Shown here in pieces: positions 2,851-24,273 of a stretch of DNA of 26,345 bases. Below the pieces are notes generated by a model. That model saw only the letters and a program-made list of their open reading frames with translations, was not told the origin of the DNA and did no database searches. Position numbers and translations under genes: made by a program. Every line of letters begins with the position of its first letter. Position 1 is the first letter of the stretch. Source of the stretch: a virus. The DNA lies in IMG/VR virus record IMGVR_UViG_3300050139_000116, positions 1 to 26,345 of that record. The stretch is one strand, 5' to 3'.

Positions 2851-2874
2851 TATAAATACTTTTTAATTTATGTT
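2851..2874 (-). promoter_or_regulatory. Putative phage late promoter, class B (AACAT-N10-GTATTTATA)
   Basis: On the minus strand AACAT is followed after 10 nt by GTATTTATA, 18 nt before the ATG of the adhesin. The same pair occurs before 8442, 20154, 22684 and 24246. It lies in the 58-nt gap after the large terminase. The promoter role is inferred from position and recurrence. Confidence 0.55.
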
Positions 2875-2890
2875 TTTATATGCCAATAAT

Positions 2891-4219
2891 TTAATGTTCA
2901 AAGAATTGAAATTCACCACCATCTTCACCAATTTCTCTATCTGGCAAATATATACCACCTAGTGATTTATTTATCTTTATTGATTCACTAGGTGCGTTTA
3001 TTGATGAATATATATGATATCCCCCTTGAAGCTTATTCTTTAAATATGAATCCCAAGCAATTGCAATCGACATAACTATATCATCATGCCCACTACTTGC
3101 ATGAAACTTTATCTTACCAGTCTTGGTATATTCAAACACAAAACTATTTAACTCAGCCTTCAATTCCTCATTATTTAATACCCTAATCTCCCTAGAACTA
3201 AAAGCTGATATCAATTGATTGATTATATCTGCCTTGCTATCTGATGTTGTTATAAATCCCTTTACATTGGGTATATTCTTTTTTATATGCTGAATAATAG
3301 GTAACCCCTGGTTATTTTCTTCGACCACCAATTCACGTGGCTTAAAGGTTGAATATACCTTCTCTATCCTTTTTATAAGCTCTGGTGCCTCTAATCCACG
3401 TGCTCTATCCATATATACCATCTCACCCTTCTGATTGAATACACTCAAAACATAATAATCTGTCAATAACGCTATATCAACTCCAATATAATAAGTTTCA
3501 CCATAAATTGGCCCATGTTGCTGATTTAATACCGCCAATTCATATATGTTATTGAATACACTATTACTATCAGTCCACTCAGCTAAGAACTCTTGTGCAA
3601 ATATTCCCTCTGGTAAAGATAACTTAAATGTCTCAATCAGAGCTTTATTTGCCAACGGATTATCATAACTATTGAACTTGAATGACTTGTATCCCTCAAT
3701 ATCCTTATTACCCCTTAACCATAATTCATAGAAAAAGTTCTTTCCTTTAGGAGTTGATATTATCAGTATCTTCTTACCAGCAACCGATAAAGACGGTAAT
3801 ATAATCTCTTCTATCGTCTCTTGCTTGATAAAGGCTGCCTCATCTAGTATAAGGAAGTTTACACTACTACCCCTAAGTGTATCCTCAGATGCTGCTGACT
3901 TAAACTCAATCCTAGCACCATTATGCAGTTCAATCATTATATTTCCCTTGGATTGAATCTTATTCTTAATCAGACCTAATGGTTCCATTATAGATACCAA
4001 AGAACGCCATACAACCTTGGATTGACTCTCGGAAGGAGTAACATACCATATAAGGGCTTTCTCGTTCTTTATAGCCCAATTAAGTGTTTGATACTTGGCT
4101 AGTGTTGATTTACCACTTTGACGACCAGCACATACTACTGTCCAGAAATTTGGTGATTTAGGTGAACAAGCTATATGAACTGCTTGTTGATGTTTATGTG
4201 GTGAATAGTTCAGTTTCAT
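2891..4219 (-). CDS. terL: Terminase large subunit
   Basis: This 442-aa packaging motor pumps DNA into the prohead and cuts the concatemer. The ATPase domain shows Walker A AGRQSGKST (31-39), Walker B LILDE (123-127, with catalytic Glu127) and a coupling motif STPKG (155-159). The C-terminal RNase H-like nuclease shows three acidic patches: Asp248 in GVDIA, Glu300 in LVVEEN, and Asp379/380 in GHDD. Length and motif order fit the Terminase_6/6C families. The start at 4219 has no Shine-Dalgarno. The gene is separated from the small subunit by a 46-aa gene and 370 nt of non-coding DNA, which is unusual because the two subunits are normally adjacent. Confidence 0.95.
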   Translation of the reverse strand: MKLNYSPHKHQQAVHIACSPKSPNFWTVVCAGRQSGKSTLAKYQTLNWAIKNEKALIWYVTPSESQSKVVWRSLVSIMEPLGLIKNKIQSKGNIMIELHNGARIEFKSAASEDTLRGSSVNFLILDEAAFIKQETIEEIILPSLSVAGKKILIISTPKGKNFFYELWLRGNKDIEGYKSFKFNSYDNPLANKALIETFKLSLPEGIFAQEFLAEWTDSNSVFNNIYELAVLNQQHGPIYGETYYIGVDIALLTDYYVLSVFNQKGEMVYMDRARGLEAPELIKRIEKVYSTFKPRELVVEENNQGLPIIQHIKKNIPNVKGFITTSDSKADIINQLISAFSSREIRVLNNEELKAELNSFVFEYTKTGKIKFHASSGHDDIVMSIAIAWDSYLKNKLQGGYHIYSSINAPSESIKINKSLGGIYLPDREIGEDGGEFQFFEH

Positions 4220-4592
4220 GGTTATTTAAGTATTTAATTGCTTCTGATAACATCTTTATGTTTATCCCAAATCTCTGTGTTTATTAGTGTTTTAATCATA
4301 TTTTAGCGACTTTTTTACTGTTTATGGTTCTTAAGGGATTACCAAACGTTTGGCTAAATCATTTACGTAATTCGCTTCGCTCTTACGGCCTTCGGCACGT
4401 AATTTCAAAATCGGCTTCGCTCTTACGGCCTTCGGCACGTAATTTCAAAATCGGCTTCGCTCTTACGGCCTTCGGGCTCGTTGTCTGAAGCTTGGCTGTT
4501 CCAAACTTGCACAAGGTCAGCTTTGAAAAGGCACCTGGTATGTACATATATCTAAATCGGTTTAGGACTCTCATCGTTACATTCAACGCTTA
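4220..4592. other. Non-coding stretch between small and large terminase genes
   Basis: No convincing gene lies here. The stretch holds a 12-bp perfect palindrome CCAAACGTTTGG (4342-4353), GC-rich 40-bp tandem repeats (4375-4475) and a 10-bp palindrome TATGTACATA near 4540. Its composition is clearly richer in GC than the surrounding genes. A 67-codon open frame across it reads mostly repeat-derived sequence and is not credible. Position between the terminase genes makes a packaging (pac/cos) site or an acquired host repeat plausible; neither can be decided here. Confidence 0.5.
4375..4475. repeat. GC-rich 40-bp tandem repeat, about 2.5 copies
   Basis: The block beginning CTTCGCTCTTACGGCCTTCG restarts at 4375, 4415 and 4455, an exact 40-bp period. 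The first two copies continue with GCACGTAATTTCAAAATCGG; the third diverges after about 21 nt. Copies are essentially identical, suggesting recent duplication or selection. Confidence 0.85.
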
Positions 4593-4733
4593 TCAAAGCC
4601 ATAACCTCAGAGCCCTAAGTAGGGTTGATATCGGCTCATACACCAGCATCTTACCTATCACATAGATAATCACTCCAAGTATTATAACTGGTATCATCAT
4701 ACATAATCCAACCATTTGAATGAACTTATACAT
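4593..4733 (-). CDS. Small single-pass membrane protein (46 aa)
   Basis: The ATG at 4733 overlaps the last 8 nt of the small terminase gene, so translation is probably coupled. The protein starts MYKFIQMVGLCMMIPVIILG and continues with a hydrophobic stretch to about residue 28, then an amphipathic tail rich in Leu and Arg. This gives one transmembrane helix. No family is recognised. Given its place in the packaging block it could be a virion or lysis accessory, but nothing in the sequence says which. The tight overlap and clear hydrophobic helix argue that it is real despite its size. Confidence 0.6.
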   Translation of the reverse strand: MYKFIQMVGLCMMIPVIILGVIIYVIGKMLVYEPISTLLRALRLWL

Positions 4734-5223
4734 TGGATTCTTCTGATGTCTTATCATCGGAGATGTTCCCCAAAGGAGTTATATCTATGAAGCTGGTATC
4801 ATCGGGGTCAAACCCGTTGAAATCAAGCTTCTGACTTATCTGTATGTTGGTCACGGTCTTATCATGGTTGTAATAGCCCATCATCTTATTGAGCATATCT
4901 AACACTTCTACCTGGTATTTGTAGTTCTTATCGGCTTTGGCTTGGTCTAATAGAACCTTTAGTTCTTGTACTACCAGGTGTTTCGGTACATGAGCCAGGT
5001 GTTTTAATTGAGATGAGAGGCTGGCAATTGATGCTTTCACTTCTGGTTGCTTTAATAATCTATAACCATTAGAAGATGCAGTACTCTTATTTTTTACCTT
5101 ATATACAGCCATATAAGCATCTGGTACTGACATATTTTTAATAAGCATATTATCAATAAATGCTTGTTGTTTATCATTAAGAACTGATTCTTTTTCTTCT
5201 ATTTTAGTTACTTTATCACTCAT
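4726..5223 (-). CDS. terS: Terminase small subunit
   Basis: A 165-aa DNA-recognition subunit of the packaging machine. The N-terminal signature LNDKQQAFIDNML (15-27), followed by a helix-turn-helix-like segment with PDAYMAVYKVKNKSTASSNG and a third helix RLLKQPEVKASI, is typical of the Terminase_2 family. The middle (about 75-115) is helical and would form the oligomerisation core. The acidic C-terminus probably contacts the large subunit. The ATG overlaps the stop of the upstream homing endonuclease gene (ATGA at 5220-5223). A second, divergent copy of this N-terminus is fused to that endonuclease. Confidence 0.88.
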   Translation of the reverse strand: MSDKVTKIEEKESVLNDKQQAFIDNMLIKNMSVPDAYMAVYKVKNKSTASSNGYRLLKQPEVKASIASLSSQLKHLAHVPKHLVVQELKVLLDQAKADKNYKYQVEVLDMLNKMMGYYNHDKTVTNIQISQKLDFNGFDPDDTSFIDITPLGNISDDKTSEESNV

Positions 5224-5903
5224 TTCAATCGATTTTTTTCTCTTGTTTCACAATATTGTTTTACTATTTCACTAGTTTCTTTTGTTAATCCTTTATTCCA
5301 AGGAGCTCTACCTATTAGTTTATGAACTTTTTTATAAGACTTTTTAAATTCTTCCAATCGTTCATCAGCTAATTCTTCAAGTGTTTTACCAGTTATATAT
5401 GGTTTTCTACCAACGTTAGCTTTTCTCATCTTATCAAGAGTTTGTTCTGAATGTGGTTTTCTATTCTTCTGTGATTGTTTCATTTTATTCCTAGTATCTA
5501 AACTAGGTTTACATCCAGAATACATACCAATTCCACCATTATCTAAGTTAACAAGTTTAAAACCCCAAGCTTTTAATTGTGATATCCAATACATTTCTAA
5601 CTGATAGGCCATATCTTCTGTTAAATCTATCTCAATTTTTTCAGAATAGAATCCATATTTATTAACATAGTTATTCCAATAACCACTTCTACCATGAATA
5701 CTATTTAATCTACTTTTAGAACCCTTTCCAACATAAAAAGGTATATTAGTTATGGGATTATAATGAATATATACATAAAATTTATTTGTCATATTGATTG
5801 TTTTGTTTTTCAAACCATCAACAATAATCTTATTAACAAAGGCTTGTTGTTTGTCAGTAAGTTTAACGGTAGCTGTTAAGCCTGTGTTAGTTGTTTCTTC
5901 CAT
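5220..5903 (-). CDS. GIY-YIG homing endonuclease with a small-terminase-like N-terminal extension
   Basis: The 227-aa product has a GIY-YIG nuclease domain (about 41-125): VYI at 44-46, YVGKG at 57-61, Arg65 and catalytic Glu103. A NUMOD3 DNA-binding motif follows (PHSEQTLDKMRKANVGRK, about 150-167). Residues 1-37 are foreign to this family. They read LTDKQQAFVNKII at positions 15-27, co-linear with the small terminase downstream (LNDKQQAFIDNML, same positions). The nuclease alone could start at the internal Met38 (ATG 5792). The element probably inserted into a small terminase gene and left part of one copy fused in frame. It spreads by cutting related phages that lack it. Confidence 0.88.
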   Translation of the reverse strand: MEETTNTGLTATVKLTDKQQAFVNKIIVDGLKNKTINMTNKFYVYIHYNPITNIPFYVGKGSKSRLNSIHGRSGYWNNYVNKYGFYSEKIEIDLTEDMAYQLEMYWISQLKAWGFKLVNLDNGGIGMYSGCKPSLDTRNKMKQSQKNRKPHSEQTLDKMRKANVGRKPYITGKTLEELADERLEEFKKSYKKVHKLIGRAPWNKGLTKETSEIVKQYCETREKNRLK

Positions 5904-5905
5904 AA

Positions 5906-6034
5906 TTATATTCTATTATCATTTTTAGTTTTAAATCCAATAAGATGTTCTTTTAGTATCATTTTAGCCTTCTTCTATTCAAGCTTTGTTATTTTATCTT
6001 GTAGATGTTTTATCTGTTTATCGATATCTTTCAT
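5906..6034 (-). pseudogene. 42-codon small gene interrupted by an in-frame TAG
   Basis: From ATG 6034 the frame reads MKDIDKQIKHLQDKITKLE, then TAG, then continues KKAKMILKEHLIGFKTKN and ends at TAA 5906, two bases before the homing endonuclease start. Upstream it begins 5 nt after the HAD gene stop. The full frame therefore fits the gap exactly, as packed phage genes do, and both halves look like one helical, Lys-rich peptide. Possibilities are a recent nonsense mutation, amber readthrough, or two tiny genes (19 aa and an 18-aa frame from the internal Met). No amber-suppressor tRNA is visible in the window. Confidence 0.45.
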
Positions 6035-6039
6035 ATTAG

Positions 6040-6393
6040 TTACTTTACGAGTATTGTGTCAATATATGGTGCATTTATGTTTATTTCTTGTAGATTGGCT
6101 AGGGTATCATCCCAGAAGACATCTATTTCGTAATGTATAAGGAATGGTGATTTATCTTGTTGTTGAGTGAATATTACGTTATTTATATCTATTCCTAATT
6201 GATTTGTTATGTTATATACTTCATCACTTCCACCTTCAATAGCTTCATCTGGGAATCTTTTGGTACATATGTATACTTGTTTGTTTAATGATAGTAGATA
6301 TGTTGCTAGGAGTTGATATTGTTTTTTATCTAGCACACCATCAAAATCGAAGCAAAAGACGTGTTTTTTGAAGTTTATATTGGTTGTCATCAT
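6040..6393 (-). CDS. HAD-superfamily phosphatase-like protein
   Basis: A 117-aa (or 116-aa, from the second Met) protein with the compact HAD core. Motif I is DFDG at 16-19 (nucleophile Asp16, acid/base Asp18), motif II a Thr in ICTKR (Thr44), a candidate motif III Lys81, and motif IV WDD (Asp95/Asp96) that would hold Mg2+. No cap domain is present, so a macromolecular or small phosphoester substrate is possible. Its short length resembles phage HAD-like phosphatases, sometimes called 5'-nucleotidase- or PNK-phosphatase-like. The substrate is unknown. Confidence 0.65.
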   Translation of the reverse strand: MMTTNINFKKHVFCFDFDGVLDKKQYQLLATYLLSLNKQVYICTKRFPDEAIEGGSDEVYNITNQLGIDINNVIFTQQQDKSPFLIHYEIDVFWDDTLANLQEININAPYIDTILVK

Positions 6394-6398
6394 ATTGG

Positions 6399-6665
6399 TT
6401 AGAGATAGTTGTATATACCTGTGTTCTTATCTTCAATAGGAGTTGGTATTGTTTTTTCTTCATTACATTCGCAATAAGCCTCAAATTCGCCACATTCTGG
6501 GCATGTTGGTCTTTTATTATCATATAAGATAGATGCGAGTTGTTTTTGTATTTCAGTTAATGTATCAATTCTAGATAAGTCTTCATTTATGTCTAAAAAC
6601 CATGTATTTCCAATTAGTTGGCAATATGAATGTTTTCTTGTTGATATTTTTATATCTAGTTTCAT
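6399..6665 (-). CDS. Small zinc-ribbon-like protein
   Basis: An 88-aa protein starting MKLDIKISTR at ATG 6665, chosen because the start overlaps the preceding 28-aa gene as ATGA. Upstream codons give an alternative longer frame from 6719, which is less likely. Four cysteines, CPEC (55-58) and CEC (65-67), near a Gly/Glu-rich turn suggest a metal-binding knuckle. The N-terminal 50 residues are mixed alpha/beta without a recognised family. The role is unknown. Confidence 0.6.
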   Translation of the reverse strand: MKLDIKISTRKHSYCQLIGNTWFLDINEDLSRIDTLTEIQKQLASILYDNKRPTCPECGEFEAYCECNEEKTIPTPIEDKNTGIYNYL

Positions 6666-6748
6666 TTTGATATTGGTTTGGGTTGAGGTGTTGGGTTGGT
6701 AGGACGAGGTTTTCCACAACCACAGTCTCTATATTGTTTTATTTTCAT
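6662..6748 (-). CDS. 28-aa Cys/Pro-rich microprotein
   Basis: ATG 6748 opens 6 nt after the stop of the ATP-grasp-like gene, and its TGA overlaps the next ATG (ATGA). The peptide begins MKIKQYRDCGCGKPRPTN and ends in a proline-rich tail. The CGCGKPRP segment resembles half of a zinc knuckle. It fills the gap between two genes with no spare bases, which supports it as a real coupled gene. Function unknown. Confidence 0.5.
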   Translation of the reverse strand: MKIKQYRDCGCGKPRPTNPTPQPKPISK

Positions 6749-6753
6749 ATCTA

Positions 6754-8037: not shown

Positions 8038-8038
8038 A

Positions 8039-8442: not shown

Positions 8443-8445
8443 TAA

Positions 8446-8468
8446 TATAAATACGATAATAAGATGTT
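8446..8468 (-). promoter_or_regulatory. Putative phage promoter, class B (AACAT-N9-GTATTTATA)
   Basis: On the minus strand AACAT and GTATTTATA are separated by 9 nt (10 at the other four sites), directly before the 63-aa gene. It would drive the ATP-grasp, HAD and terminase genes. It sits between the sigma-like gene stop at 8471 and this start. Confidence 0.5.
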
Positions 8469-8470
8469 TT

Positions 8471-9055
8471 TTATGTTAAACCTTCACGTCTAATCTTTTT
8501 CTTTAGTTTTTTTTTAACTTTATTAAATGTATACCAAATTGAATAACCTTTGATATTGATATCTTTAGCCAATTCGTTGCAGTATTTATCTGAATAGGCA
8601 ACCAATTCAAAGATTTTCTTTTCATAATAGGTCATTTTATCCAGTTCTTTATTAACCAAGTTGTTTAAAGCTTCTACATCCCAATCCTGTCCATTATCGG
8701 AAACACCATTATCTATATTAATATTGGATATGTCATCAGATAGTTTATTTATCTTGGTGTTATATTGACGGCTATATGGGCTTGTTGATAATAAGAATTG
8801 TTTCTTGATAATCATGAAGATGAACCATTTAAGTTTTTTATTGGTATTAAGGTCGATTATAAGGCTTTCTGGTTTTTCTAATAGGTATAAATAAGTCATT
8901 TGTAATAGGTCATCTATATTAGATGATTTACAGAATCGTTCAATTTCCTTTCTCATTTGTTTATCTCTGGCAAAAGCATCAATAATCTGATTTTTTGTAT
9001 GTGCTGAGACATAAAATCCAGGAGTCGAATTAGTTATATTATTCTTATAATTCAT
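8471..9055 (-). CDS. Sigma-70-like RNA polymerase sigma factor
   Basis: 194 aa. A region-2-like block (about 46-90) reads NIDDLLQMTYLYLLEKPE, matching the helix that binds the beta' clamp in sigma factors. It is followed by basic/aromatic residues suited to -10 recognition. A region-4-like block (135-190) begins NKELDKMTYYEKKIFELVAY, then has a recognition helix in KGYSIWYTFNKVKKKLKKKI. The linker is short, as in small ECF-type factors. It would redirect host RNA polymerase to phage promoters. It is the most diverged of the three sigma-like genes here. Its stop lies just before the class B promoter of the next unit. Confidence 0.65.
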   Translation of the reverse strand: MNYKNNITNSTPGFYVSAHTKNQIIDAFARDKQMRKEIERFCKSSNIDDLLQMTYLYLLEKPESLIIDLNTNKKLKWFIFMIIKKQFLLSTSPYSRQYNTKINKLSDDISNINIDNGVSDNGQDWDVEALNNLVNKELDKMTYYEKKIFELVAYSDKYCNELAKDINIKGYSIWYTFNKVKKKLKKKIRREGLT

Positions 9056-9528: not shown

Positions 9529-9532
9529 GGTA

Positions 9533-10178: not shown

Positions 10179-10210
10179 TTTGATTTCCTGGATAAATATT
10201 AGTATATTTG
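10179..10210 (+). promoter_or_regulatory. Bacteroidetes-type vegetative promoter
   Basis: TTTG (10179-10182), 20 nt, then TATATTTG (10203-10210) exactly fit the Bacteroidetes -33/-7 consensus. The ATG at 10215 is only 4 nt after the -7 box, so the transcript would start at or next to the start codon (leaderless). Confidence 0.75.
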
Positions 10211-10214
10211 TAAC

Positions 10215-10679
10215 ATGGAAAAAGTAGGAACAGAATATTCAATAGATTTAGATATCTTATCGTGTAGTGCTGGTACAGTAAATAGACACCATTGTAAAGC
10301 CTTTTATATACAATTGGGAGGTTGGATGGATATAAGTGATGTAGAAGATAAAATAGTTGTTCTGAGACGATTTAAAAGCTATTTAAACAATAGTATACGT
10401 GCTATTGCATTTGATATTCATTCTGATTCTTTATATACCTTTGTTGATATGGATATTCCAGAGAATTTAGGTCTTACCACCAATACTGGTTTTTTTAGTA
10501 TTGAGACTACTATTATGCTTAAAGAGCCTATAAAAAACTTTAGAACTGATATAGCATTAGAAGCCAATATCAAGGCATTTGGTGGATTGGTTGAGGGGAT
10601 GTTGGATAAAGTTGAGGGGATGTTGGATAAATTTGATGATATACATGTATCAAAACGTAAGTTAGCTAAGGTTATTTAA
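10215..10679 (+). CDS. Hypothetical early protein (154 aa)
   Basis: A lone plus-strand gene behind a host-type promoter, so probably expressed on entry. The body (10-110) looks like a compact alpha/beta domain, with short strands such as SIRAIAFDIHSDSLYTFVDM. Near the C-terminus a seven-residue unit VEGMLDK is repeated (residues about 126-139), encoded by a 21-bp tandem duplication. Its last 18 bases overlap the end of the convergent sigma-like gene. No family recognised; takeover or anti-host functions are typical of such positions but unproven. Confidence 0.6.
   Translation: MEKVGTEYSIDLDILSCSAGTVNRHHCKAFYIQLGGWMDISDVEDKIVVLRRFKSYLNNSIRAIAFDIHSDSLYTFVDMDIPENLGLTTNTGFFSIETTIMLKEPIKNFRTDIALEANIKAFGGLVEGMLDKVEGMLDKFDDIHVSKRKLAKVI
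10590..10631 (+). repeat. 21-bp tandem duplication
   Basis: GTTGAGGGGATGTTGGATAA plus one more A occurs twice back to back (10590-10610 and 10611-10631) without a mismatch. It adds seven residues to the C-terminus of the 154-aa gene. Perfect identity suggests a recent event. Confidence 0.9.
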
Positions 10680-11165
10680 TTCTTTATATTGTTTTTTAAG
10701 TAGTCTTTTTATTTTTTGAAGTCTAAAATCAATAACCTTTAGCGTTACACCTAATACACTGGCCATATAAGGTCTAGTCCATTTTCTCCAATAAAGGAAT
10801 CTAATTAGTGCTTTATCCTTAGGTGGTAATTCATTTATAAGTCTTTTTTTAATCTGGTCGCTTTCACCATTTTTATCTTGATATGATGCTGATATTAAAT
10901 CTAATCCATAAACTATCATTTTTACCTTTTTACCTTTTTGGCGTTCAAATATTCTAAATATCTGGTTACGTATTGTTAAAAACATATAACCCTTATATTC
11001 TTCATAATTATCACAAGGTACTTTACCTTGATTGAATTTCTCCAGGAGTTTTATAACTGCATTATTTAGGCAAGTTTGGCGTTCATGGTTATTTATCTTA
11101 TACCATCCAGGTATAACCTTGGCCAAATTTTTAATTTCTTTCTGATAATCTTGTAATGGTTTCAT
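10662..11165 (-). CDS. Sigma-70-like RNA polymerase sigma factor
   Basis: 167 aa. A region-2-like segment (30-80) includes CLNNAVIKLLEKFNQG, then YEEYKGYMFLTIRNQIFRIF and a basic patch ERQKGKK. A region-4-like segment (108-158) starts INELPPKDKALIRFLYW and has the helix-turn-helix RPYMASVLGVTLKVIDFRLQ. This is the layout of ECF-type factors without region 3. Its start lies 35 nt inside the end of the upstream sigma-like gene, so the two are made together. Its 3' end is convergent with the 154-aa gene. Confidence 0.65.
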   Translation of the reverse strand: MKPLQDYQKEIKNLAKVIPGWYKINNHERQTCLNNAVIKLLEKFNQGKVPCDNYEEYKGYMFLTIRNQIFRIFERQKGKKVKMIVYGLDLISASYQDKNGESDQIKKRLINELPPKDKALIRFLYWRKWTRPYMASVLGVTLKVIDFRLQKIKRLLKKQYKELNNLS

Positions 11166-11706
11166 AATTCTTCTTTAAAACTTTTTTAATCTTATTTAAT
11201 CTAAGTCTGATTGTTTCTCGTACAACACCATGTTTTTGACCTAATTCATTTAGAGTCATTTTTTCAAAATAATGGTCCATTATTAGGTTTCGGTCATCTT
11301 CATCAGTAAGTGCATTTATAGCCATTCTAAGACACTCTATGTGTGTTTGGTCCTCTTCTACCTCGTTGGCTATAAAGTCTTCTAAAATGGCTCCATTTTC
11401 ATCCACAGGGGTATTGGTTGATACGGTCTTGATTAGGTTTTCTTGACCTATCATTTTTGATGGTGTTCGGATTGTGTTGGAATTAAGCTTTAAAAAGCTA
11501 TTCATACGGTTTCTTATAGCAGTTGAGATATAAGCCCACCAACTGCCTTTGCCATCATATAGCTTTGAAGCATGCCAAATAGCGATATAACCTTCTTGTT
11601 CCAAGTCTTTTGTAGTTTCTTCGTCTTGGTTATAACGTTTAGCTATTTTTAGAATATATGCTCTATATTTTGTTGGGTCGAATTGGTCCCTGTTAACTAT
11701 GCTCAT
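11131..11706 (-). CDS. Sigma-70 family RNA polymerase sigma factor
   Basis: 191 aa and the clearest sigma in the window. Region 2.2 reads DLEQEGYIAIWHASKLYD (34-51). Regions 2.3-2.4 follow with SWWAYISTAIRNRMNSFLK (55-73), aromatic residues suited to melting and -10 contact. Region 4 (131-178) reads ALTDEDDRNLIMDHYF, then the helix-turn-helix TLNELGQKHGVVRETIRLRL. It would bind host core RNA polymerase and direct it to phage promoters. It is first in its minus-strand unit, 3 nt after a class A ATATTTATA element. It may therefore control its own promoter class. Confidence 0.85.
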   Translation of the reverse strand: MSIVNRDQFDPTKYRAYILKIAKRYNQDEETTKDLEQEGYIAIWHASKLYDGKGSWWAYISTAIRNRMNSFLKLNSNTIRTPSKMIGQENLIKTVSTNTPVDENGAILEDFIANEVEEDQTHIECLRMAINALTDEDDRNLIMDHYFEKMTLNELGQKHGVVRETIRLRLNKIKKVLKKNYETITRLSERN

Positions 11707-11709
11707 GTA

Positions 11710-11735
11710 TATAAATATAGTGATTTATTAGAAAG
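11710..11735 (-). promoter_or_regulatory. Putative phage promoter, class A, before the sigma operon
   Basis: On the minus strand CTTTCTAATAAATCACT precedes ATATTTATA, which ends 3 nt before ATG 11706. AATAAA lies at the same offset from the ATATTTAT core as in the site before 10114. Confidence 0.4.
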
Positions 11736-12025: not shown

Positions 12026-12037
12026 TACTTTAGGGGG

Positions 12038-12122
12038 TCAATAGGACCCTCATTTAGGTTCAATAGGACCCTCTCATAGGGTCCAGCTGGACCCTCAACT
12101 GGGTTCAATAGGACCCTCATTT
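12038..12122. repeat. Iteron-like array: TCAATAGGACCCTC repeats plus an 18-bp palindrome
   Basis: TCAATAGGACCCTC starts at 12038, 12060 and 12105. Between the last two lies a perfect palindrome AGGGTCCAGCTGGACCCT (12078-12095), whose right half supplies a fourth GGACCCT. The four cores start at 12043, 12065, 12088 and 12110, at intervals of 22, 23 and 22 bp, placing them on about the same face of the helix. Confidence 0.8.
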
Positions 12123-12156: not shown

Positions 12157-12187
12157 TTTGACTTTTATCATACTTTTAGTATATTTG
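12157..12187 (+). promoter_or_regulatory. Bacteroidetes-type vegetative promoter for the plus-strand operon
   Basis: TTTG (12157-12160), 19 nt, TATATTTG (12180-12187). Transcription should start near 12193, giving a leader of about 120 nt before the likely start at 12313. The repeat array and an inverted repeat lie immediately upstream. Confidence 0.75.
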
Positions 12188-12267: not shown

Positions 12268-12312
12268 TAAAATAAGATGGTAAAAATAACAATAAGGAAT
12301 AAAAATAAACAA

Positions 12313-12933
12313 ATGAAAACAACAACAAAATCAAACTTCGTACCACTTTATGATGCCATATTAGCATCTAAGAATCTAAATTCAACTCAAAAAATATTTA
12401 TTAGTATTGTACTTAGATGGCAAGCTACTGGTAAAATATGTAAAGAAACCAATCAATCTTTGGCACAAAAAATGGGTATGGAAATGCAAGGTATTAAAAC
12501 TCTAATCAAGAGAATGAATAAATTACCATTCTTTACTTCAATTTCTAAAGATTCAGAAAAAATCAAAGGTGGTTATATTTCAAGACATGAGATAACTATT
12601 GATAGAGCTAAGTTAAATGATTATTTAACAGCAGTTATTGTTAAAGAACCTGTGGTTAAAAAAAACAAGGTAAAAGAAAAATCAATAATAACACCATCAA
12701 CTCAAAAAATAGGTTTAGATGAAGATGTTAATTTATATACACTGTTACCATCAATAGGTTTTGAATTTGATGATGTTAATATTATAATAGAAGAAATGGA
12801 TGGTAGTACCGTTACATTTAAAGATTTAATATCATGTATAACAAAGTTTAAAAAAGAGGTTCAATATGCTGATTATGAAGGTCCATCAATAAATAATAAT
12901 ATTATTAACAATTTAAAACAATTATCTAAATAA
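12313..12933 (+). CDS. Winged-helix DNA-binding protein, possible replication initiator
   Basis: 206 aa from ATG 12313; an in-frame ATG at 12277 would add 12 residues. 12313 is preferred because AATAAACAA precedes it, like the A-rich context of neighbouring starts, and the first 12 residues are low-complexity. Residues 10-75 look like a helix-turn-helix/winged-helix domain (LNSTQKIFISIVLRWQ, then NQSLAQKMGMEMQGIKTLIK as recognition helix). The C-terminal half is acidic and unrecognised. It is first in the early operon, just after an iteron-like array, so it may bind those repeats to start replication or control its own promoter. Replication initiator is inference only. Confidence 0.6.
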   Translation: MKTTTKSNFVPLYDAILASKNLNSTQKIFISIVLRWQATGKICKETNQSLAQKMGMEMQGIKTLIKRMNKLPFFTSISKDSEKIKGGYISRHEITIDRAKLNDYLTAVIVKEPVVKKNKVKEKSIITPSTQKIGLDEDVNLYTLLPSIGFEFDDVNIIIEEMDGSTVTFKDLISCITKFKKEVQYADYEGPSINNNIINNLKQLSK

Positions 12934-13258: not shown

Positions 13259-13270
13259 AAATAAATTGGC

Positions 13271-13296
13271 GTTTTACCAAAAGCTACATATTTATA
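13271..13296 (+). promoter_or_regulatory. Putative phage promoter, class A
   Basis: GTTTTACCAAAAGCTAC directly precedes ATATTTATA, which ends 4 nt before ATG 13301. The distance from GTTTTA to ATATTTATA (17 nt) is the same as at 14731-14756, and the flanking AAAATAAA and TGG-G bases are also shared. Confidence 0.45.
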
Positions 13297-13300
13297 TTAT

Positions 13301-14719: not shown

Positions 14720-14730
14720 AATAAAATGGT

Positions 14731-14756
14731 GTTTTAATAAAATACTAATATTTATA
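14731..14756 (+). promoter_or_regulatory. Putative phage promoter, class A
   Basis: GTTTTAATAAAATACTA directly precedes ATATTTATA (14748-14756). It lies 13 nt before a 13-codon frame and about 60 nt upstream of a separate host-type promoter, so the following genes could be read by two polymerase forms. Confidence 0.45.
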
Positions 14757-14769
14757 ATAAACAAAGAAA

Positions 14770-14817: not shown

Positions 14818-14849
14818 TTTGGTAGTATCAATTAAAATACGTACCTTTG
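14818..14849 (+). promoter_or_regulatory. Bacteroidetes-type vegetative promoter
   Basis: TTTG (14818-14821), 20 nt, TACCTTTG (14842-14849), an exact match to the -33/-7 consensus. Transcription should start near 14855, leaving a leader of about 15 nt before ATG 14871. Confidence 0.75.
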
Positions 14850-17011: not shown

Positions 17012-17017
17012 ATATTA

Positions 17018-17424: not shown

Positions 17425-17457
17425 TTTTAATTTATTTAATTAGTTCTAATAAAACAT

Positions 17458-18099: not shown

Positions 18100-18102
18100 A
18101 AT

Positions 18103-19722
18103 TTAGTTTATTTCTTTTTTCTTTTTAGGTAATTGATTAATATATTTTGGCAATTGAGGAACAACTGCCATATTCTCTTCTTCATCAGAACCTAAGAATG
18201 TATCAATTTGTTCATCATTTAATCCATATCCAGATGATAATAATACCTTGGCTTGTTGATGTGTTAATTTCTCTTGATTAACTTGTCTAATGATTCTTAA
18301 TAAACCACCATGTTGACGGCCTGTAAGACTATTTAATACACTATTAATAACTGGAGCATCTTCATCAGACATTCCTAAAGGCTTAGAAGCACTTGTAGGT
18401 GTAGTTGGTGTTGTAGATGCATCAGCATTAGATATATTAACACCAAGATTAGGTATATCAGTTTTAGCCAAAGGAGGTAAACTAATACGATTACGTAATT
18501 CATTTACTGTCATTATATTTAATAATGTGGCATCATCATATGTGAAATTAATTGGATGATTATCTTTAATAAATACTTTAAGAGTGAATCCATTAAAATC
18601 TAATATCTCTTGTATCGTTTCTTCGAAAAGTGTTTGAATTGGATATATAACATTATTCAAATATAAACTAGCTGATTGAGCTAATTCATTAGACAACCCC
18701 AATTGTCCAGGTACCGCCACTCCAGCTAATACTGGATTAGGGATTTGATGGGCTCTTATAATACTATTATCACAAAATTCACTTAAACGACTATATATCT
18801 CACTCATATTAGATGTCTCAATAGGAGTGATTGTAGTGGCATTAGCATTACTTTGATTATAGCTTAATATGAACTTACCAGCTTTCGCTGAACCACCATA
18901 TAAAGCGTTTATTGATTGATATTGAACCTTCATATCTTCTTCAGTAGGTATTCCATTATTATAGTTAATAACCATAGAAGGACTTAAACCATTCATTACA
19001 CTGGATAACATATATTGACCAACTTCATAAGATAATTGAATAGCTGTAGCTGCTGGTTGCCAATCTGGTAATCCATAGAAACGAGTATTAGATTTATAGT
19101 TACGAATCATCATAATACTATCAGCTTCAATTCTATTTGAAGGGTCAAATACTGGTATTTCTTCTGGAGTAAAATCTTTCTTTTTATATTGAGTCCAATC
19201 TTCAGAATAATAAAAACATTCAATTTCTCTTGTTTCTATATTTGGAATACCAACTCTTACTTGAGCAGCATCAACATGATATATCTTTGCAATCTTGGTA
19301 CGGTCATTTGACCAACGAATACCAATATAGAAATAACCAAACATAACGTAATCAGATATACATCTTTTAAGAAGTTTATTGATATTTGTTGTTTTAAGAA
19401 AATCAGTTTGTTTTGATAACATATCCTTATCTTGTGAATCTTCAACTTGAAACCCTTCACCATATATATTTTGGATTTTATTGGTTACTATAGCTTGATG
19501 CAAAGGACAATTATTGGTAATAGATATGAGCCAATTTGGATAAAGGTTATCAATACCATTATTTACCCATAATTTGTTTTTCTTTTCTTTAAATACAGGT
19601 GGTTTATAAGTAGCAAAACTAATACTTTGTATATTACTATTTGGTTTAAATATACTTTTATCATTAGATAAAATATCTTGATTATTTATAAACTCTTGTA
19701 ATTCATTATTAATATCGCTCAT
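18103..19722 (-). CDS. Portal protein
   Basis: 539 aa. A dodecameric ring at the capsid vertex through which DNA enters and leaves. Family marks are VNNGIDNLYPNWLISI (53-68), MFGYFYIGIRW (127-137), the portal signature YGLPDWQ (216-222) followed by long helices, and a helical crown near QSASLYLNNVIYPIQTLFEE. The C-terminal 110 residues are Thr/Pro/Ser-rich and then basic (LPKKKKEIN). It belongs to the HK97/PBSX-type portal group. It lies downstream of the capsid genes rather than beside the terminase, an unusual order. Confidence 0.9.
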   Translation of the reverse strand: MSDINNELQEFINNQDILSNDKSIFKPNSNIQSISFATYKPPVFKEKKNKLWVNNGIDNLYPNWLISITNNCPLHQAIVTNKIQNIYGEGFQVEDSQDKDMLSKQTDFLKTTNINKLLKRCISDYVMFGYFYIGIRWSNDRTKIAKIYHVDAAQVRVGIPNIETREIECFYYSEDWTQYKKKDFTPEEIPVFDPSNRIEADSIMMIRNYKSNTRFYGLPDWQPAATAIQLSYEVGQYMLSSVMNGLSPSMVINYNNGIPTEEDMKVQYQSINALYGGSAKAGKFILSYNQSNANATTITPIETSNMSEIYSRLSEFCDNSIIRAHQIPNPVLAGVAVPGQLGLSNELAQSASLYLNNVIYPIQTLFEETIQEILDFNGFTLKVFIKDNHPINFTYDDATLLNIMTVNELRNRISLPPLAKTDIPNLGVNISNADASTTPTTPTSASKPLGMSDEDAPVINSVLNSLTGRQHGGLLRIIRQVNQEKLTHQQAKVLLSSGYGLNDEQIDTFLGSDEEENMAVVPQLPKYINQLPKKKKEIN

Positions 19723-19725
19723 AGG

Positions 19726-20154
19726 TTAATAGGTTTTAAAAAAGATATTATTACCAGTATTACCAGTAAAATAGATGTAATTATTTGTTGTATTAGGTTT
19801 ATAAAAGACTCTACCTTCACCAACCAATCCAATTGTTTGTGTTGGGTTAAGATTGTCTCTTGTTGTTTGTTCATATATTTTATATAACCAAAAATTACCG
19901 TTGCTTAGACTTATAGTACCACCTGTTAAATTGGTATAAGTAGAACCAGTTTCAATAATATTGAATTGGTCATAACGGGTTCTTGCTGATATATCAGCTA
20001 TGTTATCAGCAACAAAATAGATTGATTCATTCGTACTTTCACTTGTGAAATTAAAAAGAAAATAAGGCGTACTTGAAGAAAATACCCAAGATTGACTATT
20101 AACTGTAAGGTCCAAATATATATTATTATTACTATCTTGTGCTATATTAATCAT
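19726..20154 (-). CDS. Hypothetical virion-associated protein (142 aa)
   Basis: First gene of the portal unit, 3 nt before the portal start, with its own class B promoter. Almost entirely beta and Asn/Thr/Ser/Tyr-rich (SWVFSSSTPYFLFNFTSEST; later NGNFWLYKIYEQTT and YIYFTGNTGNNIFF). No cysteine and no signal peptide. This is the look of a capsid decoration, tail or neck protein. No family recognised, so only the structural role is inferred from composition and neighbours. Confidence 0.5.
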   Translation of the reverse strand: MINIAQDSNNNIYLDLTVNSQSWVFSSSTPYFLFNFTSESTNESIYFVADNIADISARTRYDQFNIIETGSTYTNLTGGTISLSNGNFWLYKIYEQTTRDNLNPTQTIGLVGEGRVFYKPNTTNNYIYFTGNTGNNIFFKTY

Positions 20155-20170
20155 AGATTGATGCTTCTTA

Positions 20171-20194
20171 TATAAATACCATTTTATTTATATT
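20171..20194 (-). promoter_or_regulatory. Putative phage late promoter, class B (AATAT-N10-GTATTTATA)
   Basis: On the minus strand AATAT (AACAT at other sites) lies 10 nt before GTATTTATA, 16 nt upstream of the start at 20154. It sits just downstream of a terminator, so the portal unit has its own start of transcription. Confidence 0.5.
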
Positions 20195-20199
20195 ATCTT

Positions 20200-20240
20200 A
20201 AAAAATAAAAGGCCATACCATTTTAAGATATAGCCCTTTA
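20200..20240 (-). terminator. Intrinsic terminator after the tail tube gene
   Basis: On the minus strand GGCTATA pairs with TATGGCC (7 bp with one T-G wobble), flanked by AAA/TTT, and is followed by CTTTTATTTTTT. It lies 20 nt after the stop at 20261 and immediately before the portal promoter. Confidence 0.6.
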
Positions 20241-20260
20241 AGTGGATTATGGAGGAAAAA

Positions 20261-20824
20261 TTAAATAGAGATTATACCTGGAATTACACTAGCTGCAACT
20301 TCTAAGTTTGGTACTCTTTCAGATGCTGAGAATACAAGTGAATATCCATTGGTATCACCGAAGGCTTTACCTGGACCACTAGTAGAATCCATCATATCAA
20401 CACCATTAGATGATGAAGGTGATGTTCCAGTACCATCAGTACCAATAAGCCAATATTGACCATTTCTATCTTCAGCAATAACCAATAATTTGGTGTTTGC
20501 AAGCAAGACCATTTGGTTTCTTACAGCTGTTGAATATTCTGATAAATATAAATTGATTGTAGTTTCAAACGAAGTAGTACCGTTGGTAGCACTTGCATGA
20601 GGAACCTCAGAAAAATCTGAACCTTCTTTAGTTAAATCAAAGGTATAAAATTTACCAGTATTAATTGTTAAACCTGTAATTTGGTTTGTTGCATTTAATG
20701 TATAAGTTACATTTTCTGCTGTATTTGTACCACCTGTGAAGAAATTCGCTATGAACATTCTTCTGACACCTGGCATAAAATTTTTACATGGAAGTGGTAA
20801 ACCACTTGTTAATGAACATGACAT
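20261..20824 (-). CDS. Probable major tail tube protein
   Basis: 187 aa, isolated between two terminators, as expected for a single highly expressed virion gene. It begins MSCSLTSGLPLPCKNFMPGV. Beta strands and glycine turns follow, and a typical late segment YSLVFSASERVPNLEVAASV ends in a hydrophobic strand. This resembles the small tube-forming proteins of Bacteroidetes siphoviruses, whose rings stack around the tape measure. A capsid accessory or minor structural protein is the alternative; naming rests on size, fold impression and position after the capsid gene. Confidence 0.55.
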   Translation of the reverse strand: MSCSLTSGLPLPCKNFMPGVRRMFIANFFTGGTNTAENVTYTLNATNQITGLTINTGKFYTFDLTKEGSDFSEVPHASATNGTTSFETTINLYLSEYSTAVRNQMVLLANTKLLVIAEDRNGQYWLIGTDGTGTSPSSSNGVDMMDSTSGPGKAFGDTNGYSLVFSASERVPNLEVAASVIPGIISI

Positions 20825-20851
20825 AGTTTTATTTGTTTTTAAGTATTTTTA

Positions 20852-20884
20852 TAAAAAAAGCCAGCTGTTTATCAGCCAGCCTTT
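20852..20884 (-). terminator. Intrinsic terminator after the major capsid gene
   Basis: On the minus strand AAGGCTGGCTG-ATAAA-CAGCTGGCTTT forms an 11-bp stem with three G-T wobbles, followed by a run of T. It is 27 nt after the capsid stop. It should set the ratio of capsid to downstream tail tube message. Confidence 0.8.
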
Positions 20885-20910
20885 ATTTATTTTTTTGTTA
20901 TTTTTTAATT

Positions 20911-21954
20911 TTAGTATACAATTACTTGAGAAGGGAACTTAACAGTTGACGCAATTTTCCATTTTGTGGTTGCTCTTAGTTGATCAAAATCATAAGATTT
21001 CCAAACATGAGTTTTTTCGTAATCATTTAATAAATCCACACCAACTGCGATGTTGTCATCGTTAGTACAAATGAAACCTTGGTAACCAGATCCAGAAGGA
21101 CCAGCTAAACCAATTGTACCTCTAAGTGTAACGTTATTTCTACCAATAACTGTCAAGTTCAAATCACCTGTAGTGAAAGAATCTGGAGCATAATGGAATA
21201 AGTTTAAGTTAATAAGAGCTCTACGATACATATCGATATATTGTGGTTGACACCAGATACTGATGTTTTTTTCCATTAACATGTTATTTGGAATTGCACC
21301 AGTAATCAAATCGATAATGTTATAAATTGTAGCTACAGTTGGAGCACCAGAATATGGAACTACAGTTGCACCACTCATAGAAGTTTGGTTAAGGATGTTA
21401 TATAACAAACCTTGACAACCAGCTAAATATTGCCAGTTACCAGTTGTACCAGTACCAGCTGTATCACTTAAGTGACCAGTTTGACCAGTATTTGAAGTAC
21501 CTGTATATTGAATGGCATAAGGATTATATGAACCTAACCATACAGCATAATCTGTAGCTTGAGATACATACTTAGAAACAAGACCCATAAAGGCATCTTC
21601 AAAAGTAGGAAAATCATCTTGATATGAACCGATACGTTGTAACATACCTAAATAGGTTTGTTCTAAACTTCCGTTTCCTTCAAGAATAAATGAGTTATTT
21701 AATTTTAAATCACAAACTTGTAAAAACACTTGTGTCATTAAAGTGGTTCCACTATCAGTAAAACCATTTGAACTTGCGTTGTTTAATTGTACTGTGAATG
21801 GATTTAAATCCATAATGTTAAAAGAATCTGAATTCTTTACACCTTGAATAATATCAACATACTTAAGAGTATTTGATTCAAGGATTGCTTTTGAGATAAT
21901 TGGTTGACTTAATTGGTCAACATATGCTGCTAGAGCATTTACGTTAATAGCCAT
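20911..21954 (-). CDS. Major capsid protein
   Basis: 347 aa. It follows a scaffold gene and an XkdF-like protease gene, the usual capsid order. The N-terminal arm is helical (NALAAYVDQLSQPIISKAIL), and a Gly/Thr/Ser-rich middle would form the E-loop and peripheral domain. The C-terminal segment NIAVGVDLLNDYEKTHVWKS and KWKIASTVKFPSQVIVY matches the last strands of HK97-fold capsid proteins of Bacteroidetes phages. It has no promoter of its own; it is read with the scaffold gene 25 nt upstream and ends at a strong terminator. Confidence 0.85.
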   Translation of the reverse strand: MAINVNALAAYVDQLSQPIISKAILESNTLKYVDIIQGVKNSDSFNIMDLNPFTVQLNNASSNGFTDSGTTLMTQVFLQVCDLKLNNSFILEGNGSLEQTYLGMLQRIGSYQDDFPTFEDAFMGLVSKYVSQATDYAVWLGSYNPYAIQYTGTSNTGQTGHLSDTAGTGTTGNWQYLAGCQGLLYNILNQTSMSGATVVPYSGAPTVATIYNIIDLITGAIPNNMLMEKNISIWCQPQYIDMYRRALINLNLFHYAPDSFTTGDLNLTVIGRNNVTLRGTIGLAGPSGSGYQGFICTNDDNIAVGVDLLNDYEKTHVWKSYDFDQLRATTKWKIASTVKFPSQVIVY

Positions 21955-21979
21955 GGGTTATTAGTTTTTTTTAATTTTT

Positions 21980-22684
21980 TTAGAAATTCTTAAAGATGTC
22001 TTTAACATCAATAGGTTTCATGTTATTATTTTTAATTTTTTTAACATCTACCTTAGAAAAGGTTTCAGTTGTTTGTTTAGTTGTATCAGCAAGTGTTTTA
22101 TTCTTTGCTTTGTATTCTTTTTTCCAATTTTCTAAATATTCACCAGCAGTTTGTTTACCAGTTCTTTCAGCTTTGAAAACTTCTGGAGCAGCTGCTGAAT
22201 TCATTTTTTCAACACTCATTTTGGTTGCTGAAACAGCATCTTCTAATGCAGAAAGTCTGTCGGTAATATTCTTGATTATTTCAATCATAGTACCCATATC
22301 ACCATCTCCGTCAGCATCTGGAGTTGCAGTTGCCACTGGTGGTACTGCATCAGCCATAGTGGCTGGAGCATCTGATGTTGGATTAGCAGCAGTTGTATCT
22401 GGTGCTGGAGCAGCAGCAGTTGTATCTGCTGGAGTTATTGATTCAACAACACTTGATTTGATAACTAAAGAGCTACCATCTTCAAGTGTATAAGGACCAT
22501 CTGGAGCTGGAGCCGAAGTTCCATCTTCTGAAATAAGAACAACTTGAGAACCTGTTTTAAAGGCATCATCAGTTGTTCTTAGAATACTGCCATCAGCAGC
22601 TTTAGCATCAAGGAAGGACTCCTTTTTTACTAGTTGAAACAATTCAACAAGTTTTTCTTTTATACTTTTCGTATTTTTACTCAT
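21980..22684 (-). CDS. Head scaffolding protein
   Basis: 234 aa from ATG 22684. The frame is open to 22762, but the extra codons cross a promoter-like element and enter the protease gene, so the later start is right. The N-terminus is Lys-rich and helical (TKSIKEKLVELFQLVKKESF). The middle is Ala/Pro/Thr/Asp-rich, a flexible linker. A coiled coil follows (MIEIIKNITDRLSALEDAVS), and the C-terminus is basic (KKIKNNNMKPIDVKDIFKNF), as scaffolds use to grip the capsid protein. It would be removed by the neighbouring protease during maturation. Confidence 0.75.
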   Translation of the reverse strand: MSKNTKSIKEKLVELFQLVKKESFLDAKAADGSILRTTDDAFKTGSQVVLISEDGTSAPAPDGPYTLEDGSSLVIKSSVVESITPADTTAAAPAPDTTAANPTSDAPATMADAVPPVATATPDADGDGDMGTMIEIIKNITDRLSALEDAVSATKMSVEKMNSAAAPEVFKAERTGKQTAGEYLENWKKEYKAKNKTLADTTKQTTETFSKVDVKKIKNNNMKPIDVKDIFKNF

Positions 22685-22714
22685 TTTTAATAAGGTTTTA
22701 AATCTCGTATTATC

Positions 22715-22738
22715 TATAAATACAAGTCTGGTTATGTT
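22715..22738 (-). promoter_or_regulatory. Putative phage late promoter, class B (AACAT-N10-GTATTTATA)
   Basis: On the minus strand AACAT, 10 nt, GTATTTATA, lying exactly in the gap between the protease stop (22740) and the scaffold start (22684). It would drive scaffold and capsid genes at high level. Confidence 0.6.
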
Positions 22739-22739
22739 T

Positions 22740-23432
22740 TTATAATTTATTTGATAAATCAATATCTTCCTCTGATAAGAGTTGAGTCAATTTATCTATC
22801 AAGTTCATTTCTTCTTTATTTAATCCTATCTCTTTAGAGAAAGTTTCAATTGGTCTTGCACTCATACTATATAAACCTTCTACCGAAAAGCCTTTCAATT
22901 GGCCAGTTTTGATATAAGACTCCCAAACTTGGTCATTAGGTAAATACACCACACCCATCCATGTACCTTTGGCTAAACCTTTAAAATTATAAGCACTTGA
23001 TTTATCATTTTTAGGGTCAGTTATAATCCAATTTTCTAATAAGAAAGCATTATCAATATCAGTTGAATGGGATAAGTTAATATTATGTGAATAGTTCTTT
23101 TTTATAAAATTCTTTTGAGCATTAACCACATCTTCTTCAGTAAAGATTATATTATATTCTTTGGTTATATTACCCATATCATCCTTTTCAGTACGATATA
23201 TTTCAAGATTTGGTATCATCAAAGGGCCTATAAGACATCTCTTTGATGTATCTTGTATCTTGAATGTTTGTTTTTTTATAGATGAATTGGTTCCAAAAGA
23301 GATAAAATCAACTCCAATAGCTGGAACATCAACAAGAGATATCATATTGGTTTCAGTTGAATCACAAAAATCTTCTGTGCATTCGTTTACCTGTAAACGG
23401 TAAACTGGTAATTTTGTTTCTTTATTTTCCAT
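22740..23432 (-). CDS. Prohead protease, XkdF-like (S78_2 type)
   Basis: 230 aa. ISLVDVPAIGVDFISF (31-46), CLIGPLMIPNLEIYR (66-80), IIFTEEDVVNAQKNFIKKNY (95-114), NINLSHS (117-123) and GQLKGFSVEGLYSM (177-190) are the ordered blocks of the XkdF-like serine protease family. Candidate catalytic residues are His122 and Ser183. It would cleave scaffold and capsid precursors during head maturation. Its start overlaps the preceding gene by 11 nt. Confidence 0.85.
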   Translation of the reverse strand: MENKETKLPVYRLQVNECTEDFCDSTETNMISLVDVPAIGVDFISFGTNSSIKKQTFKIQDTSKRCLIGPLMIPNLEIYRTEKDDMGNITKEYNIIFTEEDVVNAQKNFIKKNYSHNINLSHSTDIDNAFLLENWIITDPKNDKSSAYNFKGLAKGTWMGVVYLPNDQVWESYIKTGQLKGFSVEGLYSMSARPIETFSKEIGLNKEEMNLIDKLTQLLSEEDIDLSNKL

Positions 23433-24246
23433 CTAAATATTTTTTATAATCTTCGGTCTCTTTTTGATATGTTAAATCATTAAAGACGTTTATTAAGTTT
23501 AATTTTGTTATTTCATCAAATCTGGTTAAATCACCACCAGCCATTTCTCTTACCATTCCATACCAATTCCATTTTTCAGCATATTCAACAGCAAAGGATT
23601 TAACCTTATCATTTATTGATTCATCTGGGATTCTACTGGTTGGGAAGAGTCCTTGATAGTTTCGCTTAAATTCGTCCCTATTAGTAAAAAAAAAAGCTAC
23701 ACATGTGTAGAGATATGGCATCGGCATCTTCTCAAGGAAGACTTCTGAATCCTCCAATAAATCATCATATGAATATGCTTTGATTTGAGGCTTTCTTTTA
23801 AGCATCTTATCAATCTTGGTATGTTTGGTTTTACGTATAAAACTAGCCGTAATCTTATGAGCATTATCCCATACATCACCAGTCTTCATTATCATATCCA
23901 AATCAATAAATTGTCCTAATGACATCTTATTAAATTCTCTATCCAAATGATATTTTTGACCATCTATTTCTAAAGAAACATCTTCAAGAGTTGTAACGTC
24001 ACTTGATGTAAGATTCATTAGTTCGTGAAGAATTTCATTATATTTAACGGGTATTAATTCATTAAGAATCTCTATATCAATATTGGTTACAATACTAAGA
24101 TATTCAAGGGTATATTCAATCTCATCTTCTTTATTAGCTTTAGCTTCATGCTCACGCATTCTTAAGAAGGTTTTTAAATTGATATCCATCCAATTTGACG
24201 GGATATTAAATTTATCTTTACCTTTACCTATTCTGATTACTTTCAT
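23422..24246 (-). CDS. Hypothetical tail-assembly-like protein (274 aa)
   Basis: Begins with a beta strand and IPSNWMDINLKTFLRMREHE, then YTLEYLSIVTNIDIEILNEL, a pattern seen in proteins next to tape measure genes in Bacteroidetes phages that may act as tail assembly chaperones. The remainder is helical and charged. It follows the tape measure gene directly and precedes the protease. At about residue 183 a run of ten T in the coding strand encodes Phe codons; slippage by -1 there would end translation one codon later. The chaperone role is inference. Confidence 0.5.
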   Translation of the reverse strand: MKVIRIGKGKDKFNIPSNWMDINLKTFLRMREHEAKANKEDEIEYTLEYLSIVTNIDIEILNELIPVKYNEILHELMNLTSSDVTTLEDVSLEIDGQKYHLDREFNKMSLGQFIDLDMIMKTGDVWDNAHKITASFIRKTKHTKIDKMLKRKPQIKAYSYDDLLEDSEVFLEKMPMPYLYTCVAFFFTNRDEFKRNYQGLFPTSRIPDESINDKVKSFAVEYAEKWNWYGMVREMAGGDLTRFDEITKLNLINVFNDLTYQKETEDYKKYLDGK

Positions 24247-24249
24247 ATC

Positions 24250-24273
24250 TATAAATACTTATTTTTTGATGTT
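24250..24273 (-). promoter_or_regulatory. Putative phage late promoter, class B (AACAT-N10-GTATTTATA)
   Basis: On the minus strand AACAT, 10 nt, GTATTTATA, ending 3 nt before ATG 24246, so this transcript would be nearly leaderless. It sits between the tape measure stop and the 274-aa gene. Confidence 0.6.

Follow-up and report, generated by a model that had tools for sequence, protein, structure and literature searches.

The window analysed here is a whole IMG/VR record (IMGVR_UViG_3300050139_000116; 26,345 nucleotides (nt)), and is a fragment of about 26 kb from the genome of an uncultured phage. The late units, with genes for the portal, the maturation protease, the terminase large subunit (TerL) and an adhesin-like protein among others, lie on the minus strand. 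Five of their starts are preceded by the same bipartite motif, which consists of a 9-mer core, GTATTTATA, and AACAT (AATAT at P3) 10 nt upstream of it, or 9 nt at P4 (P1–P5, Table 1). Judging from the sequence comparisons below, these five sites are probably late promoters that are read by a phage-encoded sigma factor of the extracytoplasmic function (ECF) type, most likely the product of sigC.

Table 1. Predicted promoters and selected genes of the window, and late cores of related phages.
Feature	Position	Strand	Elements or evidence	Predicted RNA start	Genes predicted to be driven, or remark
P1	24250..24278	-	upstream element ACAATAACAT 24269-24278, gap 10, core GTATTTATA 24250-24258	24246 (A of ATG)	g23422 (uncharacterised), then protease
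P2	22715..22743	-	ATAAAAACAT 22734-22743, gap 10, core 22715-22723	22711	scaffold-like gene (ATG 22684) and capsid-like gene
P3	20171..20199	-	AAGATAATAT 20190-20199, gap 10, core 20171-20179	20167	g19726 (ATG 20154) and portal
P4	8446..8473	-	TAAAAAACAT 8464-8473, gap 9, core 8446-8454	8442 (A of ATG)	directly behind sigma-like gene; unit towards TerS/TerL
P5	2851..2879	-	ATAAAAACAT 2870-2879, gap 10, core 2851-2859	2847	adhesin-like gene (ATG 2832)
Host-type promoter	10180..10210	+	TTG-N20-TATATTTG		before gene at 10215
Host-type promoter	12158..12187	+	TTG-N19-TATATTTG		before gene 12277-12933
Host-type promoter	14819..14849	+	TTG-N20-TACCTTTG		before gene 14871
sigC	8471..9055	-	194-aa ECF-type sigma-like protein		best late-sigma candidate
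sigB	10662..11165	-	weak region 4; PF08281 0.0013 (below its cut-off); phrog_1740 2.7e-4		alternative candidate
sigA	11131..11706	-	Sigma70_r2 6.5e-11 (region 2), Sigma70_r4 1.2e-6 (region 4); phrog_351 1.5e-22		alternative candidate
Terminase large subunit	2891..4219	-	phrog_2 1.6e-49		late unit
Portal protein	18103..19722	-	phrog_33693 1.6e-38		late unit
XkdF-type maturation protease	22740..23432	-	PF14550 1.4e-11		late unit
Late core of P12024L			CGTTAATATA
Late cores of different groups			CTATTATA, CGTTAATA, GTATTTATA

The original prediction had placed GTATTTATA directly upstream of five minus-strand starts, with AACAT or AATAT 9–10 nt further up, and had seen no other copy in the window. 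All five sites were recovered. The absence of further copies holds for the bipartite form, but the core alone occurs a sixth time, on the plus strand at 26263, within the tape-measure gene and without AACAT. The core is indeed upstream of the start codon at all five sites, but not always directly so, the distance being 3 nt at P1 and P4, 16–18 nt at P3 and P5, and 30 nt at P2. As for the contents of the units, the portal, the protease and the adhesin-like protein are identified by profile matches, as are the other late functions, whereas scaffold and capsid are named by position only.

When AAYAT is allowed 8–11 nt upstream of GTATTTATA, the pattern is found five times on the minus strand, and neither on the plus strand nor in the reversed control. 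A comparison with shuffled sequence and a weight-matrix scan had been proposed together with the prediction, and both bear it out. In 1000 dinucleotide-preserving shuffles of the window, the bipartite pattern has a mean of 0.021 and never exceeds 1. Taken by itself, the core stands out less (6 observed versus 1.2 expected, with a maximum of 6 in 1000 shuffles), and the significance therefore rests on the bipartite form. With a weight matrix of both parts, the five sites score 21.4–25.4 and stand alone in the window, the next-best place scoring 13.6, which is the level of Markov-random sequence. Because the matrix was trained on the same five sites, the informative part of this result is the absence of intermediate scores. 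The motif marks structural and late units only; like the phage-sigma late promoters of phages 7-11 and phiEco32, it is over-represented and confined to late-unit starts on the coding strand. The exact string AACAT-N9/10-GTATTTATA is not diagnostic outside the window genome, because among the at least 120 IMG/VR stretches listed most matches are inside genes.

None of the five sites carries a Bacteroidota housekeeping (sigma-ABfr) promoter, TTTG / TANNTTTG. All clear host-type promoters of the window (TTG-N19/20-TAHHTTTG, at 10203, 12180 and 14842) precede plus-strand genes and are themselves on that strand. The earlier statement that no host promoter precedes any minus-strand gene is thus correct for the five sites, but has to be qualified by one candidate, a host-like TTG-N20-TAATTTTG that precedes the lysozyme gene on the minus strand (16865). 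From the plus-strand promoters, together with the flavobacterial relative P12024L described below, we infer a Bacteroidota host.

No near match to the window was found in deposited phage DNA, and single-protein searches with the portal and TerL returned no close relatives of its phage. Among named relatives, the Nonlabens phages P12024L and P12024S come closest by portal and protease, with about 28–30% identity. By portal alignment, 80 distant relatives with a gene order as in the window were assembled. The window's own motif has only a few scattered matches in them, which are not concentrated, and each lineage's own motif was therefore sought by k-mer enumeration, in which words over-represented upstream of genes were listed per genome against an upstream-region background. 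A first motif search by expectation maximization, which recovered start-codon context only, was dropped.

The relatives have analogous motifs of their own. In nine contigs TCTATTATAT is present in 3–5 copies each upstream of genes and is rare elsewhere (expected 0.00–0.01), and CGTTCATGTA has four copies in G012; TTTCTATT is the own motif of G009, and CGTTATAT that of L354, L367, L379 and L399. The cultured phage P12024L (NC_018272; L126, L252 and L253) has four TTCCGTTAAT-like sites before ATG, and its sigma-like gp35 is encoded upstream of terL. The lineage spellings of the late motif are CTATTATA, (A/C)GTT(A/T/C)(A/T) and ATATTTATA, with 3–5 copies per genome. These copies precede the equivalents of the window genes, namely the first structural gene, the scaffold gene (where they are syntenic with P2) and the pre-portal gene; in the L060 group, ATATTTATA is found before the scaffold and tape-measure-sized genes. 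Short or divergent cores, as in G011, G014 and G020, were missed by the k-mer finder and were seen only when the sequences were aligned on the pre-portal ATG. L351 (PBGL02000003.1), the sole contig from the genome-contig scan, is filed under a Euryarchaeota metagenome-assembled genome; it comes from a phage of this group, carries promoters of the CTATTATA type and is probably misbinned.

Alignment of 140 distinct CTATTATA sites yields an upstream 10-mer, CAAATAAATA, at -20 to -11 from the first base of the core, with a gap of 10 nt. In the window, AACAT occupies -15 to -11 from the core, with an equal gap in four sites and one nt less in the fifth. On this alignment, AACAT is the promoter-proximal (downstream) half of a 10-nt upstream element, which explains the short spacing of the elements. 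The original description of this spacing as unlike the usual -35/-10 is true of the gap between AACAT and the core, but the oddness disappears with the 10-mer geometry; the same alignment speaks against AACAT as a complete -35 box at an odd spacing.

In 53 of 141 CTATTATA sites and in two of the five window sites (P1 and P4), the ATG begins precisely 12 nt past the core's first base (position 12). Where CTATTATA sites have leaders, position 12 is enriched in A (68%), and in the three other window sites it is A, A and G. A late core is also found before the pre-portal gene of many relatives, usually exactly at -12, and this register is kept under the other spellings CTATTATAnnnT, AGTTATATnnnT, AGTTAAATAGAT, CGTTCATGTAAT and CGTTTATAATAT, with a shift of 1–2 nt in a few lineages. 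If the RNA starts at position 12, as we infer, the core would extend from -12 to about -4 and the upstream element from -32 to -23. Most relatives share this one geometry, with the upstream element near -32 to -23 and the core from -12. This would place the RNA start about 3–4 nt past the 9-mer, a little nearer than the 5–12 nt suggested earlier; in two sites it would coincide with the A of ATG. The sites with ATG on position 12 suggest that the late mRNAs made from them are leaderless.

Most relatives of sufficient length encode one sigma-like protein of about 160–220 amino acids (aa), ECF-like and typically about 190 aa, and its gene is usually upstream of the first late promoter. In the relatives the spelling of the promoter tracks the phage's own sigma. 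Type-1 sigma factors pair with CTATTATA, type 2 with (A/C)GTT cores, and a third group, the L060 lineage, with ATATTTATA. At exactly -12, CTATTA is found 16 times in type-1 genomes and never in type-2 genomes, while the counts for (A/C)GTT(A/C/T)(A/T) are 21 in type-2 and 1 in type-1 genomes. The CGTTATAT group was expected beforehand to have a type-2 sigma, and this was then found (112 versus 36 bits). On the sigma tree, the three core labels need 3 changes versus a shuffled mean of 11.4, a contrast that is inflated by near relatives.

The window itself encodes three different sigma-like proteins on the minus strand between 8471 and 11706, within a 26 kb phage fragment. The 3' end of sigC is about 19 nt before the first late core. 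Its product has no Pfam sigma match and matches phrog_1190 at 0.012, but scores 36.9 and 43.1 bits against the hidden Markov models of two late-sigma groups of the relatives, versus 18.0–21.5 bits for sigA. In the AlphaFold model of sigC (predicted local distance difference test score 76.5) the protein is helical and in two parts joined by a low-confidence linker, region 4 being above 90 and region 2 less confident. The Foldseek matches listed are sigma factors, with ECF sigmas at the top. Alignment to E. coli sigmaE (VIA-align) gives a Z-score of 10.5 over both parts, with a large root-mean-square deviation, and region 4 alone gives a Z-score of 9.5 at 2.1 Å over 69 residues. The modelled sigC has the ECF-type architecture, with regions 2 and 4 and no region 3. 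The ATG of sigA is directly preceded by ATATTTATATAC (11706–11718, minus strand), in the late -12 register and without AACAT, which is possibly a weak late-type or autoregulated start.

What computation shows is the motif with its statistics and placement, the register and synteny in the relatives, and a sigma protein together with its predicted fold. The original notion of a phage-specific late promoter is strengthened by the restriction of the motif to late units, by its syntenic analogues in the relatives, by the host-type promoters on the plus strand, and by the covariation of phage sigma and motif. Under the mechanism proposed here, the host sigma holoenzyme would first read the host-type promoters of the plus-strand genes. 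The phage ECF-type sigma, most likely sigC, would then bind the host core RNA polymerase. Region 4 of this sigma would contact an A-rich element at -32 to -23, with AACAT as its lower half, and region 2 would melt the core GTATTTATA from -12 on. With a predicted start about 12 nt beyond the core's first base, the mRNAs of P1 and P4 would begin at the AUG or within 1–2 nt of it, and those of P2, P3 and P5 would have leaders of about 13–27 nt.

It is rather unlikely, yet deserves consideration, that the sites are late promoters read by sigA or sigB, and that sigC acts on promoters of a different class or has lost its function. Such a division of labour would agree with the clear Pfam regions 2 and 4 of sigA, sigC being below the sensitivity of Pfam, and with a hint that the phage has more than one promoter class. 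The hint comes from two exact copies of TGGYGTTTTA-N11-ATATTTATA on the plus strand (13267–13297 and 14727–14757), before or between plus-strand genes; this pair is possibly another phage promoter class that has a TATTTATA core in common with the late class. The profile scores, however, favour sigC, which is also encoded directly before the first late promoter, as the sigma genes of the relatives are likewise upstream.

A host alternative (ECF) sigma might be exploited instead, the phage sigma-like genes being unrelated to the sites. Bacteroidota hosts have many ECF sigmas, and the group-2 elements of the relatives (GGAAC-like at -32, GTT core) resemble the generally known ECF layout. This reading is nevertheless improbable, because the spelling of the core shifts with the clade of the phage's own sigma, and one pairing was predicted in advance. 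There is similarly little to commend the idea that the sites bind a phage regulator (a repressor, an activator, or a packaging or replication protein) beside promoters. A strict 9-mer that has a partner at a fixed gap would be compatible with an operator, but the motif is not palindromic and no host-type promoter is present at the five sites, and the -12 register of the core to ATG in many lineages fits an element that fixes the start site.

The T4 late promoter is TATAAATA and is read by gp55. Although the reverse complement of the core, TATAAATAC, contains this consensus exactly at all five sites, T4-type late promoters on the opposite strand have next to no probability and are rejected, because all would fire antisense, away from the late genes, because the relatives' cores CTATTATA, AGTTATAT and CGTTCATG have no TATAAATA in their reverse complement, and because the register is to the minus-strand ATG. 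On the coding strand TATAAATA is found at the 2851 site only, as an overlapping copy. Unlike T4 late promoters, the window sites have the 8-mer on the wrong strand and are accompanied by an upstream element; a T4-type late sigma was not recognised.

Several points weigh against the assignment of the five sites to sigC as late promoters. sigC is on a long branch outside all motif groups, and its pairing with GTATTTATA is therefore the weakest link; two further sigma-like genes, sigA and sigB, are present in the window. The covariation of sigma and motif rests on about three deep clades. With no close relatives found by the DNA, portal and TerL searches, the exact pair of GTATTTATA and AACAT before late units is seen here in a single phage, and the L060 group matches the window in ATATTTATA only, with no clear AACAT. 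ECF start sites are usually a few nt further from the core. The case is one of computation, from which the RNA start, binding, sigma–promoter pairing and timing are deduced. Finally, most Flavobacterium transcripts have leaders of more than 10 nt (PMC6847099).

Some neighbouring features may be described. The adhesin-like protein (1–2832, minus strand) contains YadA head repeats (PF05658) and, near the window edge, a stretch rich in glycine. In the region 4726–5903 (minus strand), a gene for a homing endonuclease (NUMOD3, phrog_314) has its 3' end at the terS start; the N-terminus of the endonuclease, LTDKQQAFVNKI, repeats that of TerS, LNDKQQAFIDNM, as if the gene had been inserted into terS. 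The interval between terS and terL (4220–4725) has no convincing gene in about 500 nt; a group I intron or other RNA was looked for in it, and no Rfam match was found. In the non-coding stretch 12031–12112, before a replication-initiation-like gene, AATAGGACCCTC words are repeated.

The late promoters of Salmonella phage 7-11, GTAAtg-(16)-aCTA, are read by the phage sigma SaPh711_gp47 (PMC8948821), and the middle and late promoters of phiEco32, tAATGTAtA, by phi32_gp36 (PMC8948821, PMC4331800). The two phages, which are distantly related, have late promoters at similar genome positions with different spelling (PMC8948821, PMC4331800), as do the relatives of the window phage. Phage 7-11 resembles the window in that its late genes are preceded by several copies of a bipartite promoter and that a phage sigma works on the host core polymerase. 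It differs in that the window phage belongs to another host group, has an unrelated small tailed-phage genome, different motifs and a smaller, ECF-like sigma, and in that the start codons of the window group are often exactly at the predicted RNA start. phiEco32 likewise has a phage sigma with its own AT-rich -10-like element, but its promoter is a single element without an upstream partner. Given these precedents, the strategy of the window phage is of a known kind.

The Bacteroidota housekeeping promoter, TTTG / TANNTTTG, has in F. johnsoniae an element at -12 to -5 and an AT-rich motif near -28 (PMC6847099). The window sites have the same general geometry, with an element at -12 to -5 and an AT-rich one at about -28, but have neither TA at -12/-11 nor G at -5 in their core. 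ECF systems have a two-domain sigma as well, and the group-2 relatives have GGAAC-like and GTT elements. ECF promoters of the sigmaE-like type read GGAAC...GTC, from which AACAT and GTATTTATA of the window differ. A search of open papers, with subscription papers and preprints outside its reach, turned up no late promoters or late sigma factors for this phage group. What appears to be new is the phage group itself, the -12 register on AUG, and the repeated re-spelling of the promoter along with the sigma.

A wider proposition, for and against which we would give equal weight, is that small tailed phages of one large group, whose hosts are probably Bacteroidota, have lineage-specific late promoters whose start is often fixed on the AUG, that leaderless mRNAs thus encode much of the virion, and that the ECF-like sigma and its promoters have changed their spelling jointly on three or more occasions, with promoter positions fixed. 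The analysis itself gives a concrete, testable model of late transcription for a common, mostly uncultured phage group, and P12024L, which has been isolated and carries four copies of its motif, offers a direct test system. It also provides a sequence-only rule for finding late genes and their cognate sigma factors, a natural co-variation set of sigma and promoter, and a possible example of virion genes without leaders in hosts that mostly transcribe their own genes with leaders. If the wider proposition is true, the re-spelled pairs of sigma and promoter would form a natural series for the recognition code of the -10 element by sigma.

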